DNA of 64,000 nt from Oscillospiraceae bacterium (GTDB lineage Bacteria > Bacillota > Clostridia > Oscillospirales > Acutalibacteraceae): assembly GCA_031269595.1 (NCBI GenBank), contig JAISYX010000066.1:1-64000 (forward strand), written 5' to 3'. Shown here one piece after another: positions 19,642 to 25,435 of the stretch. Made by a program: the position numbers and the translations under genes. The notes under the pieces are model-generated. The model worked only from the letters and a program-made list of their open reading frames with translations. It was not told where the DNA came from and searched no databases. Within the stretch, counting starts at the first letter, position 1, and the number at the start of each line of letters is the position of its first letter.

Positions 19642-20124
19642 TTAAGTGGTTAAACTATATATGCCGCTTGTATCAAGCGAGTTAAGAGCCGCAGAGTAGT
19701 CAAAGCCAAATACATTAAGGGCGGGGAATAGCTCCCTTAAGGGCAGCAGCACAAATGCCCGCTCTGCAATGCGGGGGTGGGGCAGCGTAAGCTCATTTGA
19801 TTGCCTCTCTTCACCCTCATACAGCAGCAAATCTAGGTCGATGATACGGGGGTCTACAAGGCCCTCTGTGCGTGTTCTGCCCATGGCGGCCTCTATACCC
19901 AAGCAGGCACCAAGCAGAGCCTCAGGGCTTAAATTAGAGGCAATAAGGGCACAGCAATTGTAAAAATCCTGCTGCTCACCGCTTACCTTAAATGGCGGGG
20001 TTTGGTATATTCCCGAAGCCCTCACCTCTGCAACCAGAGGCAGCCTCTCTAATGCGTTTAATGCGGAGGCAAGATTGGCTCTTCTGTCCCCTTGATTGCT
20101 TCCAAGGCCTATTACTGCTTGCAT
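19642..20124 (-). CDS. folK: 2-amino-4-hydroxy-6-hydroxymethyldihydropteridine pyrophosphokinase (HPPK)
   Basis: HPPK pyrophosphorylates 6-hydroxymethyl-dihydropterin before its condensation with pABA. The 160-residue enzyme has GLGSNQGDRRANL at the N-terminus, SGIYQTPPFKV, and the Mg-binding DPRIIDLDLLLYE followed by LPHPRIAERAFVLLPL. GGAGGGACCCGT precedes the ATG, and the gene starts inside the end of folB. It is the next step after FolB in the folate pathway. Confidence 0.95.
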   Translation of the reverse strand: MQAVIGLGSNQGDRRANLASALNALERLPLVAEVRASGIYQTPPFKVSGEQQDFYNCCALIASNLSPEALLGACLGIEAAMGRTRTEGLVDPRIIDLDLLLYEGEERQSNELTLPHPRIAERAFVLLPLRELFPALNVFGFDYSAALNSLDTSGIYSLTT

Positions 20125-20501
20125 ACGGGTCCCTCCAAGCCTTCCCTTGAACGGGTAATGCTGACTGCAACATAGTCAAATTCTGCGCTGATAGGTGCGT
20201 CCGGCTTTTTGAGCAGCAGCTCCACTGTCTGCACTGCATTAAACTCCTCAAGTATGGCGTCCGCCACGGCTTGAGCCGCACGCTCTATTAAATTATAGCT
20301 TGTTTTAAGCATAGCTTTTGCCGCAGCTTGTACAACTGCGGCATAATCTACGGTGTCGTTTAAAGCATCGCTTGTGCAGGCCTTTTTTAATGACATATAC
20401 AGTGTTATGTCAAGAATAAAGCTCTGCCCGCTTACCTTTTCCTCAGGCATAGCCCCGTGAAAGGCAAAAATTTTAAGTCCCTTAATTAAAATCTTATCCA
20501 T
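20112..20501 (-). CDS. folB: Dihydroneopterin aldolase
   Basis: FolB cleaves 7,8-dihydroneopterin to 6-hydroxymethyl-dihydropterin and glycolaldehyde. The 129-residue product has IKGLKIFAFHGAMPEEKVSG, the DTVDYAAVV segment and SYNLIERAAQAVADAIL with the conserved Glu, then VELLLKKPDAPI. It overlaps folK by 13 bases and the upstream transporter by 8 bases, so translation is probably coupled. Confidence 0.94.
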   Translation of the reverse strand: MDKILIKGLKIFAFHGAMPEEKVSGQSFILDITLYMSLKKACTSDALNDTVDYAAVVQAAAKAMLKTSYNLIERAAQAVADAILEEFNAVQTVELLLKKPDAPISAEFDYVAVSITRSREGLEGPVCKQ

Positions 20502-21420
20502 TGGAGGCGGTAGCCTCCTTTTTTCTTGCAGGTATTTGCGAAAGAATGATTCCGCAGAATATCAGGGCAGAGCCTATATAACCGTTTAGACTCATGCGCT
20601 CATGCAGAATCAAAGCCGCACCCAGAGCCGCAAACAGGGATTCCAGCGAGAAGATTATAGAGGCCTTGGCAGGCTCTACATGCCGCTGCCCCACAACCTG
20701 TAAGGTGTAGGCCACTCCAACGGAGAGCAAGCCGCCGTAAAGCAGAGGCAGCCAGCCCGCAAGAATGCCTGACATATCCAGTCTGCCGGATTTGCCGGAT
20801 TCTAATATCAATGCGAATACAAAGCTTATTGCGGCACACACTCCAAACTGCACAGATGAAAATTGCAGCGGGTTTAACTTAGCAGAAAACCTGTCCAACA
20901 GCAGGATATGCGCCGCCCAGAAGAACGCACCGCAAAACAGCAGCACATCTCCTATGCCAATGCTTCCCAAGCCCTTGGGTACACTCAGCAGGTAAAGGCC
21001 ACTAAGGGCAAGCACGGCGGCTATCCAGGTTAAAACGGAGGTCTTGCGCCCTAGGAAAATGCCCACAATAGGAACAATAACCGTGTAAAGGCCTGTTATA
21101 AAGCCGGCCTTGCCCGCAGAGCCTGTGTACTCCACACCCAACTGCTGAAGGGAGCTTGCAATAAACAGTATCACGCCGCAGATAAGTCCGTAGCCCGCAG
21201 TTTTTAAAAATCCGCTTTTTCTCTCCAGTATGAATATCAAGGGGAGTAAAGAGACTGCGCCCAAGGCAAATCTTACCGCATTGTAGGTGAATGAGCCCAT
21301 GTAGTCAATGCCGCTGCGCTGTGCTACAAATGCTAAGCCCCAAATAATAGCTGTTATAAATAGACAGATAGTTGAAATTAAGGTTTTATGTTTAGTTGAA
21401 AGCAAGGTTTTACGTCTCAT
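20494..21420 (-). CDS. DMT-superfamily (EamA) transporter
   Basis: A 308-residue polytopic membrane protein with about ten transmembrane segments in two EamA repeats; the first contains IIWGLAFVAQRSGIDYMGSF and the second ends EPAKASIIFSLESLFAALGA. Members export or import small metabolites; the substrate is not predictable. The ATG at 21420 lies immediately after a structured leader with a distant ribosome site. A TTG at 21450 would extend the protein but lies inside the hairpins. It is translationally linked to folB, which is unusual company for such a transporter. Confidence 0.82.
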   Translation of the reverse strand: MRRKTLLSTKHKTLISTICLFITAIIWGLAFVAQRSGIDYMGSFTYNAVRFALGAVSLLPLIFILERKSGFLKTAGYGLICGVILFIASSLQQLGVEYTGSAGKAGFITGLYTVIVPIVGIFLGRKTSVLTWIAAVLALSGLYLLSVPKGLGSIGIGDVLLFCGAFFWAAHILLLDRFSAKLNPLQFSSVQFGVCAAISFVFALILESGKSGRLDMSGILAGWLPLLYGGLLSVGVAYTLQVVGQRHVEPAKASIIFSLESLFAALGAALILHERMSLNGYIGSALIFCGIILSQIPARKKEATASNG

Positions 21421-21497
21421 GACACCACGTGTCAGGGAGTCCGCACACAAAACGCTGTGAAGAGTGTTTTGCTGGGATTCCTGCGTCCTTTCTCGTA
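21420..21497 (-). promoter_or_regulatory. Structured leader of the DMT gene (SD, long hairpin, TGACAC hairpin, ATG)
   Basis: Reading on the minus strand: AAAGGA (21491-21486), CGCA, a long hairpin closed by GGAATCC/GGACTCC (21481-21436) whose inner stem is GCAAAAC/GTTTTGT, then TGACAC-GTG-GTGTCA (21434-21420) whose last base is the A of the ATG. Removing both hairpins leaves about 5 bases between ribosome site and start. Confidence 0.6.
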
Positions 21498-21504
21498 CTT
21501 TAAC

Positions 21505-22263
21505 TTAAAGTATAACGTTGAGGAATTGCTTGGTTCTTGGGTTTTGGGGATTGCTAAAAATCTCATCAGGCGAGCCCTCTTCGGCTATTATGCCGTCGCA
21601 CATAAACAGAACTCTGTCGGCAACCCCTTTGGCAAAGCCCATCTCATGGCTTACAACCAGCATGGTCATGCCGTCCTCGGCCAGCTCCTGCATAACCTTT
21701 AAAACATCGCCAACCAGCTCAGGGTCAAGGGCAGAGGTAGGCTCGTCAAAGAGCATGATTTTAGGCTCCATAGCAAGTGCTCTTGCTATGGCTACACGCT
21801 GCTGCTGCCCGCCGGAGAGCTTTGAGGGGTACTCGTCAAACTTATCCTCCAAGCCAACCTTTGTAAGCAGAGCCTCAGCTCTTGCCCGCGCCTCCTCCTT
21901 GGTGACGTTTTTGACGTTAATGGGAGCAAGCATTACGTTCTCTGCCGCTGTCTTGTGGGGGAAGAGGTTGAAACGCTGGAATACCATGCCCATTTCAAGC
22001 AGATAGGCGGCCTTTTCCTTGGGCGGAAGGGTAAACACTACATGTCCGTGCTTGCGCTCCTCTACAAGCTGCTCATCAATAAAGATTTTGCCGCCTGTTA
22101 TTGTCTCCAGCTCGTTAAGTGAGCGCAGGAAGGTGGATTTACCCGCACCGCTTGGCCCGATTATAACAATAACCTCGCCCTGCTCCACGCTTAGGTTTAT
22201 ATCCTTTAACACTTGAAGAGAGCCAAAGGATTTTGAGAGATGCTCAGTTCTTATAATAGACAT
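21505..22263 (-). CDS. Polar amino-acid ABC transporter, ATP-binding protein
   Basis: A GlnQ-type ATPase that energises the adjacent permease. The 252 residues contain Walker [10 protein letters not shown], the Q-loop [13 protein letters not shown], the signature [16 protein letters not shown], Walker [15 protein letters not shown] and the switch VVSHEMG. The ATG at 22263 has GGAGG 9 bases upstream; the longer frame from 22284 overlaps the permease stop and is not preferred. It is the third gene of a binding protein - permease - ATPase operon. Confidence 0.95.
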
Positions 22264-22276
22264 TTCCTTAGGCCTC

Positions 22277-22936
22277 CTATTCATAAACAGAGAATTTCTT
22301 CTCTAAACGGTTAAATACAGTTGTAAATATGCCTGTTAAGATAAGGTAGATTATCATAACTGGTATGTAAACCAGCGTGCTGGCCTTGTTAGAGGCTATA
22401 ATTCTGGCTTGGAAGGTTAAGTCTGTTACAGCTATGATAGCAACCAAGGAGGTATCCTTAAGCACCATAACAAACTCGTTGCAAATAGGCGGTATCATTC
22501 TGCGATAGGCCTGTGGAATGATAACCAGCCGCATGGACTGTGCATAGGTTAAGCCCAACGACTTAGAGGCCTCAAGCTGGCCTTTGTCAACAGATTGAAT
22601 GGCCGCACGGATAATCTCGGCCAAATAGGCCGCCACGTTAAGTGAGAAAGCTATCCATGCCGAAACAAAGCGGCTTTGTATGGTTAATGCGGGTACCATC
22701 ATTGGAATTGAATAATAGATAAAAAACAGCTGTAAAAGCAGCGGTGTGCCTCTAAAGAAGAATATGTAAGCAGAGGAAAGCCATTTAATGGGCTTGTTTT
22801 TTGAGATTTTGCCCAGAGCAAGGAATATCCCCAAAACCAAGGCTGTTAAAACAGAGGCGACAGTAAGCTCTAAGGTGACTCCGGAGGCCTTTAACAGAGC
22901 GGGCATCCAGTTCCATATTTTTGTTAAACTCTCCAT
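22277..22936 (-). CDS. Polar amino-acid ABC transporter, permease
   Basis: A 219-residue HisM/GlnP-type inner-membrane subunit with about five transmembrane helices. [20 protein letters not shown] begins the domain, followed by [16 protein letters not shown] and the cytoplasmic EAA loop [20 protein letters not shown] that contacts the ATPase. It probably works as a homodimer because no second permease gene is present. It lies 58 bases after the binding-protein gene and 13 bases before the ATPase. Confidence 0.95.
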
Positions 22937-22994
22937 ATAGAAAACCCTTTCAAATACTAATAAGGGGCGATATAATCGCCCCTTTGTGTGGTTT

Positions 22995-23813
22995 TTACTT
23001 CTTTGTTACTATGCAAAGGGCGTTTGCGACATAGGGTTTTGTTAAAATATACTTTGCTTGACGGGATTCTGTAATGCTTATGGCAGAGATAATGCAGTCA
23101 TACTGTCCTTTTTCAAGACCTGCAAAAATGCCGTCGAAGGAGGTGTTAACAAACTCAACCTTTAAACCGCCCAAAAGCTTGCCTATCTCATTGGCTACAT
23201 CAATATCAAAGCCCTGATTGGTCAAACCGTCGTCTGTTGTGTACTCCATGGGAGGGTAGCCAATCTCTGAGCCTATTGTCAAAGTGCCCGCCTTCTTAAG
23301 GCCTTCAAATTCAGGAATAACCGGAGCTTCTTTAACTTCACGCAAACCCTTGGTAAAGTCATCGCCAAAGTGCTTGGTTGCCAGCTCGGCAATCTTGCCG
23401 TTGTAATATAGGGTATCGATTGCTGCCTCAACGGCAGCAGCAAGGCTTGTTGCATCCTTGCGCAGGCATATGCCCATAGGCTCTGCTTCGTTGCTTAACC
23501 ATACACGGTTGTAGGTATCGTCGTCCTTGGTGTAATAGGCGGCAACAACGCTGTCTACATACACTGCGTCAACACGGCCGAGTTTTAGGTCAGAGAAGCA
23601 CTCGGTTACCTTCTCATAGCGCATAATGCTAATCTTTTTGCCTGCTGCAACCATTTCATCAACGCTGTCTGAAGCTGTGGTAGCAGACTGCACTGCAATT
23701 CTTGCACCGACGAAATCATCGGGAGAGCTTACCTTTTTGCTCTTTTGTGCGCAGGAGGTAAGAGCCAGTGCTGTAAGTGAGATTGCCAGAACTAAAGCAA
23801 CTATTTTTTTCAT
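22995..23813 (-). CDS. Amino-acid ABC transporter substrate-binding lipoprotein, apparently circularly permuted
   Basis: A 272-residue secreted lipoprotein with lipobox LALTSC and GAGGAGGAA before the ATG. In ordinary family-3 binding proteins the mature chain begins with the lobe-1 segment (GTLTIGSEIGYPPMEY, GFDIDVANEIGKLL, then ITESRQAKYILTKPY) and continues into lobe 2. Here residues about 28-150 hold what is normally the second half (PDDFVGARIAVQSATTASDS, LKLGRVDAVYVDSVVAAYY and the final helix DTLYYNGKIAELATKHFG). The normal first half follows at about 178-272, and the protein ends at VTKK, the usual lobe crossover. Substrate-contact residues of both halves remain, so it is probably functional. 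Confidence 0.9.
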   Translation of the reverse strand: MKKIVALVLAISLTALALTSCAQKSKKVSSPDDFVGARIAVQSATTASDSVDEMVAAGKKISIMRYEKVTECFSDLKLGRVDAVYVDSVVAAYYTKDDDTYNRVWLSNEAEPMGICLRKDATSLAAAVEAAIDTLYYNGKIAELATKHFGDDFTKGLREVKEAPVIPEFEGLKKAGTLTIGSEIGYPPMEYTTDDGLTNQGFDIDVANEIGKLLGGLKVEFVNTSFDGIFAGLEKGQYDCIISAISITESRQAKYILTKPYVANALCIVTKK

Positions 23814-23849
23814 TTTTAAAATTCCTCCTCAAGAATTTGATTTACCTAC

Positions 23850-23878
23850 ATTTTACAAGAATTTTAACAAATAGTCAA
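23850..23878 (-). promoter_or_regulatory. Promoter of the amino-acid ABC operon
   Basis: Minus strand TTGACT (23878-23873), a 17-base spacer and TAAAAT (23855-23850), about 37 bases before the binding-protein start. This is a good housekeeping-type match. Confidence 0.7.
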
Positions 23879-23946
23879 GGTCTTTCAAAAAATAACAATA
23901 AAGGATTAAAAATATTGGTACAGAACAGCGGACACAGTGTTAATGC

Positions 23947-24017
23947 CGATTTTGCTGAGGTCAGCAAAATCGTAGAGGCAGGCAATTTTCAACTTTCAAT
24001 TTTCCATTTTCAACTTA
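23947..24017. repeat. Palindrome plus 7-nt-periodic array, supplying the folP stop
   Basis: CGATTTTGCTGA, a GG centre and the complementary arm form a 26-bp inverted repeat (23947-23972). It is followed by an array of CAACTTT/CAATTTT units (23984-24017). The array overlaps the folP 3' end, and the minus-strand AAGTTGAAAA contains the folP TGA. No run of T typical of a terminator is present. Confidence 0.65.
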
Positions 24018-24804
24018 AAAGTGCGTCAATAACCCTTGCGGCCTGCACGGCCTCCTTAACGTCATGGGCACGTATAACCCTTGCACCGCCAATTTGTGCC
24101 GCAGTGTGTGCGGCAAGTGTGCCGGCCAGCCGCTCATTAAAGGGAGGGTTGCCGCAGGGGATGCCCACAACTCTTTTTCGGGAGGCCGCTGCCATTGTAA
24201 TGCAGCCGAATTCTGCAAAATCGGCATAGCTTTTTAGCACCAGCAGGTTTTGTTCCTGAGTTTTGCCAAAGCCCACTCCCGGGTCAAGGCAGACGCTTGC
24301 TCTGTCTACCCCCGCATTTATAAGCTCCTTAAGCCTTAGGGCAAAAAAGGCCTTAATATCAGCGATAATATCGGGTGAAGCTTCGCTTGGCTCAGAGTGC
24401 ATTACAACGCAGCCTGCGTCGGTTTTTGCCGCTAGCGTTATCATGCGCTCGTCGGCAAAGCCTGTAATGTCGTTGATTATATGCACGCCGTGCTCTATGG
24501 CTGCCTGAGCCACCTCAGGGTAGAAGGTATCCACAGAGAGAGGGGGGAGGCTATGCTCTTTAAACGCAAGCAGGATAGGCAGAAGGCGGTCAAGCTCCTC
24601 TTGAGGGCCTATTTTACTGTATCCCGGGCGGGTGGATTGCCCGCCTATATCAATAATATCTGCGCCGTCCTCTGCCATCTGCAGGGCATGAGAAACAGCG
24701 GCTTCAATGCTGTTCCACCTGCCGCCGTCTGAGAAGGAGTCGGGGGTTACGTTTAAAATGCCCATGACTAGGGTTTTATCACTTGGAAACATATATTTTG
24801 TCAT
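24010..24804 (-). CDS. folP: Dihydropteroate synthase
   Basis: FolP condenses hydroxymethyl-dihydropterin pyrophosphate with p-aminobenzoate and is the sulfonamide target. The 264-residue TIM barrel has GILNVTPDSFSDGGRW, DIIDIGGQSTRPGY, HIINDITGFADE, LDPGVGFGKT and SRKRVVG. It follows folE by 17 bases. The stop codon lies within a 7-nt-periodic repeat array. Confidence 0.96.
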   Translation of the reverse strand: MTKYMFPSDKTLVMGILNVTPDSFSDGGRWNSIEAAVSHALQMAEDGADIIDIGGQSTRPGYSKIGPQEELDRLLPILLAFKEHSLPPLSVDTFYPEVAQAAIEHGVHIINDITGFADERMITLAAKTDAGCVVMHSEPSEASPDIIADIKAFFALRLKELINAGVDRASVCLDPGVGFGKTQEQNLLVLKSYADFAEFGCITMAAASRKRVVGIPCGNPPFNERLAGTLAAHTAAQIGGARVIRAHDVKEAVQAARVIDALLS

Positions 24805-24821
24805 CTATTAATTACCCTTAT

Positions 24822-25397
24822 TTAGTTACCCTTAAGCAAAGACATCACCTCAGAACGGGTTTTGGCGTCCTTGCGCATAGTGCCTCTAAGTGCGGAGGTT
24901 GTTGTAAAAGAGCCCGCCGCCCTTGCGCCTCTCATGTTCATGCAGAGATGCTCTGCCTCAATTAGGACAGCCACCCCCTGCGGGTTTAGCGAATCGTAAA
25001 TAAAGTCGGCAATTTGTGCGGTTAGCCGCTCTTGAACCTGCGGCCTGCGTGCAAAGGTATCGGTTATTCTTGCAAGCTTTGAAAGCCCGATTATATTGCT
25101 GTTGCCGGGGATATAGGCTATGTGTGCTTTGCCTATAAAGGGCAGCAGATGGTGCTCGCAGACGGAATACAGCGGGATGTCCCGCACTATAATTAAATCA
25201 TCATGGCCGCTGCTCTCGTTAAAGATTTTAAGGTGCTGTGAGGGGTCGTCCTGCAAGCCCTTGAAGATTTCGGCGTACATCTTAGCCACACGGGAGGGGG
25301 TTTCACGCAAGCCCTCACGCTCGGGATTTTCGCCTATAGCCAACAGAATTTCACGCACTGCGGCTTCTATTCTGGGTATATCCATATAATGCTCCAT
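24822..25397 (-). CDS. folE: GTP cyclohydrolase I
   Basis: FolE opens GTP to 7,8-dihydroneopterin triphosphate, the first step to folate. Zinc and catalytic residues are visible in [20 protein letters not shown] and [13 protein letters not shown] (Cys, His, His, Cys). [15 protein letters not shown] is also family typical. The start is uncertain: ATG 25397 or 25385 gives about 190 residues. An upstream ATG at 25430 overlaps the ribosome site itself. A perfect 8-bp hairpin lies between the ribosome site and 25397. It forms a pair with folP. Confidence 0.93.
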
Positions 25398-25435
25398 GTA
25401 ACAAAGAATCCGCATTACGGATTCTTGCATCCTTT
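25398..25435 (-). promoter_or_regulatory. folE leader: ribosome site and start separated by a hairpin
   Basis: Minus strand: AAAGGA (25435-25430), TGCA, the perfect stem AGAATCCG/CGGATTCT (25425-25405) with a 5-nt loop, TTGTTAC, then ATG (25397). Omitting the hairpin leaves about 11 bases, near the normal spacing. Confidence 0.55.

Follow-up and report, generated by a model that had tools for sequence, protein, structure and literature searches.

The window, that is, the whole 64,000-nucleotide stretch of Oscillospiraceae DNA that was analysed, carries at 22995..23813 on the minus strand (ATG at 23813, stop codon at 22995-22997) a gene for a circularly permuted lipoprotein of 272 aa from the SBP_bac_3 family of substrate-binding proteins (SBPs). 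Its translation begins with a signal peptide (residues 1-20, 23754..23813, minus strand), and the lipobox LTSC, recognized by its pattern, designates Cys21 as the putative lipidation site. The gene is followed on the same strand by its cognate permease gene (22277..22936, HEQRo_perm_3TM, with TcyL and GlnP as best curated relatives) and by a cognate ATPase gene of the GlnQ/TcyN type (21505..22284), both assigned by Pfam and NCBIfam scans. The earlier note on this DNA had given the same coordinates and lipobox, and its intact permease/ATPase operon is borne out by the gene order SBP-permease-ATPase. Downstream of the ABC genes lies an ORF (20494..21450, minus strand) which we take, from its sequence and not from a Pfam scan, to encode an EamA-like transporter; a syntenic gene is found downstream of the ABC genes in loci L009, L010, L012-L014 and L016.

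In the gap that separates the SBP stop codon from the permease start, pattern matching revealed a GC-rich hairpin of 10 pairs (22962..22984, minus strand), a candidate attenuator or mRNA stabiliser. A hairpin in this position is seen in many operons in which the SBP is produced in excess of the permease. Two sigma-70-like promoter matches (23850..23888, minus strand) precede the SBP gene; the promoter that the earlier note ascribed to the gene has a counterpart in these matches to the consensus, which are its whole basis and leave it putative. No Rfam element was found upstream of the SBP gene. The ABC operon and the EamA-like gene sit among folate genes, all on the minus strand (19642-25430), presumably folE and folP upstream and folB and folK downstream (names given from the sequences, not from scans). 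These surroundings are not common to the related loci that were read.

The order of the two halves of the SBP is the reverse of that of the family. Residues 28-152 (23358..23732, minus strand) correspond to the second half of a canonical SBP_bac_3 protein, as delimited by TIGR01096 and superposition on ArgBP; they contain lobe D2, the C-terminal helices packing on D1, and Thr45/Thr46 and Asp87. Residues 173-272 (22998..23297, minus strand), which include Arg251, correspond to the first half and most of lobe D1, as delimited by PF00497 and ArgBP. Between them, residues 153-172 (23298..23357, minus strand) form a linker from the old C-terminus to the old N-terminus, placed by alignment and by a match to the tail of the related protein L016. 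A linker had been predicted after the second half and is indeed present, with an extent of about 20 residues (around 153-172) instead of residues 151-177.

In a whole-genome profile search, PF00497 positions 1-96 matched 22986-23282 (E 1.7e-27) and positions 97-131 matched 23364-23663 (E 1.9e-4). On the coding strand the later part of the profile thus comes first, and the two matches are complementary, not duplicated. A Pfam scan of the protein gave PF00497 at 112.9 bits (cut-off 26.4), again in two stretches, with profile positions 1-91 on residues 178-271. Among the NCBIfam models, TIGR01096 118-250 matched residues 23-149 and PRK11260 34-135 matched residues 169-272, and the PDB sequence AncQR aligned with its positions 9-104 on residues 175-272 and 108-233 on residues 27-151. 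All four sources agree that the second half stands first and the first half last; together the two segments cover the family once, and nowhere do they match in the normal order. Two incomplete copies of one half, the other arrangement considered in the earlier note, were not seen and are ruled out by the complementary PF00497 and AncQR matches. Three normal-order family members of the same genome (L001, L003 and L004), read likewise, served as controls. Since the canonical N-then-C order by which SBP_bac_3 membership is recognized is absent, the window SBP is a permuted variant of the family, and both segments match one canonical homologue, L016, swapped, each once and at 72% identity. None of the curated NCBIfam and Pfam models scanned matched the permuted proteins in their own order.

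An AlphaFold2 model built from an alignment of 30 permuted relatives (pLDDT 96.0, pTM 0.90) predicts that the window SBP folds as one two-lobed domain with the fold of its canonical homologue. The segments superpose out of order on ArgBP, model residues 149-244 on domain 1 residues 2-95 (rmsd 1.3) and model residues 3-91 on residues 123-207 (rmsd 2.5). The model comparison and the profile boundaries both place the new termini at the lobe crossover, as had been proposed. OpuAC could be aligned over the full length of the model without any reordering (Z 11.6, rmsd 4.3, 211 residues), which was to be expected of a protein already known as a permutant of ProX. In Foldseek and in the PDB profile search alike, the top match was 6h30, across the SBD1-SBD2 junction of GlnPQ. 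Within the 60 best-scoring of 417 PDB sequence matches, 6h30 alone matched the permuted profile as a single stretch (3-241), because the second half of SBD1 runs into the first half of SBD2. No permuted SBP_bac_3 chain was present among these best 60 of 417 matches or among the matches listed in the structure search, an absence that carries no weight as proof.

A search for orthologues with the same order, suggested in the earlier note, was productive. The permuted order was found in nine of the ten loci located in genome contigs and in 6 further genes from 5 sampled genomes of the order, giving a total of 15 permuted orthologous genes, 52-69% identical to the window SBP. In G227, two of them are adjacent, in tandem. 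Because these 15 genes share the order, in one uninterrupted frame, chance and assembly error are excluded as sources of the arrangement. Wherever flanking sequence was available at a permuted locus, the SBP gene was followed by permease and then ATPase genes. None of the 30 aligned permuted proteins departs from Thr45, Asp87 or Arg251 (whole-protein numbering); from knowledge of the family, we take these residues to be the expected backbone ligands, equivalent to Thr118, Asp157 and Arg75 of GlnH, respectively. For five pairs of closely related permuted genes other than the window gene, dN/dS was 0.06-0.14, as under purifying selection. The low dN/dS of these pairs and the retained ligand residues argue that the gene works. 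In the genome G026, a divergent ORF with an N-half match only (L018:2782-3816, plus strand) adjoins a permuted SBP gene.

Since cystine and glutamine systems supply the best curated NCBIfam relatives of the window SBP and permease, albeit below the equivalog cut-offs, a polar amino acid is the probable ligand, perhaps one resembling cystine or glutamine. Taken together, these features allow us to state with confidence that the protein is a working lipid-anchored receptor of a glutamine/cystine-type ABC importer and a genuine product of natural circular permutation within SBP_bac_3. Judged by its operon context, the SBP would bind an amino acid and feed the permease. It would act as an ordinary Venus-flytrap SBP, holding a polar amino acid between its lobes, with Arg251 to the alpha-carboxylate and Asp87 to the alpha-amino group, aided by Thr45/46; closure of the lobes would then hand the ligand to the permease. 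The permutation would only shift the termini, so that the membrane tether moves to the other lobe.

The closest relative of the window SBP is L016 (JAKJBX010000014.1), which has the canonical order and is 72% identical in both halves. Its operon is the same as that of the window (permease 73%, ATPase 69% identical, EamA neighbour shared), and PRK11260 matches it in one stretch, against two on the window SBP. With the halves re-ordered, L016 was nested among permuted proteins in the SBP tree; a tree of permease and ATPase, from which the SBP was left out, joined it with the permuted L011 and L015 at 100/100, and the permease alone agreed on this nesting. Outside this group lie the branches of the window and of the permuted L019 and L022. 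A clade of permuted sequences only was rejected by permease and ATPase (AU p 0.0022) and by all three genes (AU p 0.0019). For single genes or parts, the AU p values were 0.10 (SBP), 0.145 (N half), 0.037 (C half) and 0.11 (permease), and the rejection of permuted monophyly rests on the joined genes only. One gain followed by a reversal amounts to two changes, against at least three for separate gains at the same breakpoint, and reversal is favoured for this reason. It is thus suggested, with modest confidence, that the L016 lineage regained the canonical order from a permuted ancestor.

The start of the window linker is homologous to the C-terminal tail of L016; a search with the linker matched the end of L016 with 78% identity over 18 aa. 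The canonical paralogue L062, which ends in ..FGEDFTAGLRNVT, shares part of this tail, and the tail was therefore dropped as a proof of a permuted ancestor. L062 is a fast-evolving canonical-order SBP without adjoining transporter genes, from a genome that also has the permuted L015. The genus of L016 comprises one genome, and no second canonical relative like L016 was found in the genomes of its order.

Permutation extends to other members of the family. The first wide searches brought up two further permuted groups at about 30% identity. In one of them, L044-L047 and L094, the breakpoint lies about eight residues further on, and the proteins end in the stub ..GPEDLK. L087 is permuted, yet groups with the canonical L029 and L030. 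When 391 genomes of the class were searched by profile and the ORFs were then read, about 60 additional genomes were confirmed to encode permuted proteins, a figure to be taken as a minimum and not as a rate, because the loci were picked for their permuted-looking matches. A third, frequent architecture, C2-N-C1, is cut in the middle of lobe D2. It was read in L106, L107, L110, L111, L113-L118, L121-L131, L133, L134, L137, L139, L141, L145-L147 and L150, while L119 is C-N instead. In the AlphaFold2 model of L107 (pLDDT 92.2), residues 75-248 match ArgBP 21-194 (Z 18.1) and the rest of the C-terminal part sits at the N-terminus. The C2-N-C1 lipoproteins, for which no NCBIfam model in their own order was found, are a widespread class, probably of more than one origin. 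L109 has yet another cut point. L138, of 619 aa, carries an apparent sugar-type binding protein fused before a permuted SBP_bac_3 unit.

A quick tree of 97 re-ordered sequences, with several long branches, gave 15 architecture changes, and its well-supported branches alone force at least four changes per permuted type. On the evidence of these sequences, other SBP_bac_3 lineages of the class acquired the permuted architecture on their own, and at least two more breakpoints were used.

Tandem arrays of SBP units fused to a permease are also found, in either register. L034 is an array of three N-C units and a permease, L143 one of three C-N units and a permease, and L132 and L136 have two C-N units before the permease; single C-N-permease fusions occur in L095-L097 and L112. 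L144 is also an array of permuted SBP units fused to a permease (two or three units, as in L143, L132 and L136), and in L142 and L144 the ATPase is in the same reading frame too. Such arrays are plausible intermediates of permutation. They were found in other SBP_bac_3 clades, and none within the window's own clade. A canonical gene would undergo tandem duplication and in-frame fusion, after which the first copy would lose its first half and the last copy its second half. The linker would then consist of the former C-terminal tail running on into what had been the mature N-terminus, and a window linker starting with the sequence that ends L016 fits this prediction, although L062 shares part of that tail. 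As the register within an array would be arbitrary, loss of the outer halves could turn a canonical pair into a permutant, or a permuted pair into a canonical protein. In this way permutation would have occurred repeatedly among the SBP_bac_3 proteins of the class and phylum, and canonical order was probably restored in the L016 lineage.

Other explanations were weighed against this one. The halves of the window SBP might come from two different SBP genes joined by recombination: fusing two neighbouring SBP genes would yield the same order, and the authors of the TpMglB-2 study discuss a permuted part acquired from another gene (PMC4990184). Trees of the N-half and the C-half, however, both give one permuted cluster, with L016 and L042 among the near relatives, and one and the same canonical protein, L016, reaches 72% identity with each half. 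These two observations led to the rejection of a chimera of unrelated halves, and such an origin is considered quite unlikely. That the gene is a degenerate, non-functional remnant of a broken tandem SBP array is scarcely credible: tandem arrays are present in the family, but the frame is intact, with a lipobox, a confident predicted fold and conserved ligand residues, and the order is kept in the 15 other genes. A pseudogene was rejected by the invariant ligand residues and by the dN/dS of the permuted pairs.

The order of L016 could also stem from faulty assembly or binning of one metagenome-assembled genome, as a single such sequence was found. We hold this to be very unlikely, since L016 is one open frame on a 42-kb contig, in a conserved operon and with its own signal peptide, and half-swapping in single-copy genes is not readily made by assemblers. 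More weight is given to the possibility, which we still find somewhat doubtful, that L016 has the ancestral order without any reversal and that L011/L015 and the other permuted lineages each descend from canonical ancestors through permutations of their own. The family has clearly undergone permutation more than once, and the partly shared tail of L062 deprives the L016 tail of its value as proof; against this, the position of L022, the window and L019 outside L016, L011 and L015 would require at least three events at the same breakpoint instead of two. On balance, we lean towards the view that the SBP_bac_3 proteins of the class are a permutation hotspot, with at least three breakpoints and reusable tandem SBP-permease intermediates, in which permutation is reversible, L016 having passed from canonical to permuted and back to canonical.

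With the canonical SBP_bac_3 proteins (GlnH, TcyJ/FliY, ArtJ and TmArgBP), the window SBP shares both halves, the ligand-site residues, the lipoprotein operon and the folds of the segments; it differs from them in the swapped halves and in the termini at the lobe crossover. OpuAC of Bacillus subtilis, a glycine-betaine SBP, is a circular permutant relative to ProX (CPSARST, PMC2395249) and has the same permuted type II topology. It belongs, however, to another family with another ligand class; the window SBP is 8% identical to it by structure alignment and falls in Pfam family PF00497 with no OpuAC match, and a shared origin of the two permutations is unsupported. TpMglB-2 (Tp0684) of Treponema pallidum, a 'Type Ic' permuted sugar-binding lipoprotein, binds glucose and changes shape (PMC4990184). 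Both it and the window SBP are natural circular permutants and lipid-anchored ABC receptors, but TpMglB-2 is unrelated, with a type I sugar fold, a poorly conserved permuted part and another breakpoint, whereas SBP_bac_3 is a type II family. In GlnPQ, tandem SBD1-SBD2 are fused to the permease (6h30; PMC8025302); each SBD is canonical and complete, which makes GlnPQ a model of the intermediate and not a permutant.

No report of a permuted SBP_bac_3 protein, of a permuted and canonical orthologue pair this close, or of recurrence at such a scale was found in the open-access literature searched, although such an absence is no proof. Natural permutation is known for type II glycine-betaine SBPs and for a type I sugar SBP. 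Permuted proteins that the scanned curated models do not match in their own order are also relevant to annotation.

How circular permutations come about is a long-standing puzzle in the evolution of proteins, and in nature they mostly set distant relatives apart. In the present case, permuted and canonical orthologues are 72% identical and share the same operon, tandem intermediates are at hand, and the change has been repeated independently several times with different cuts. A part of a transporter from a gut-type bacterium thus represents a repeated natural experiment in protein rearrangement, once apparently reversed.
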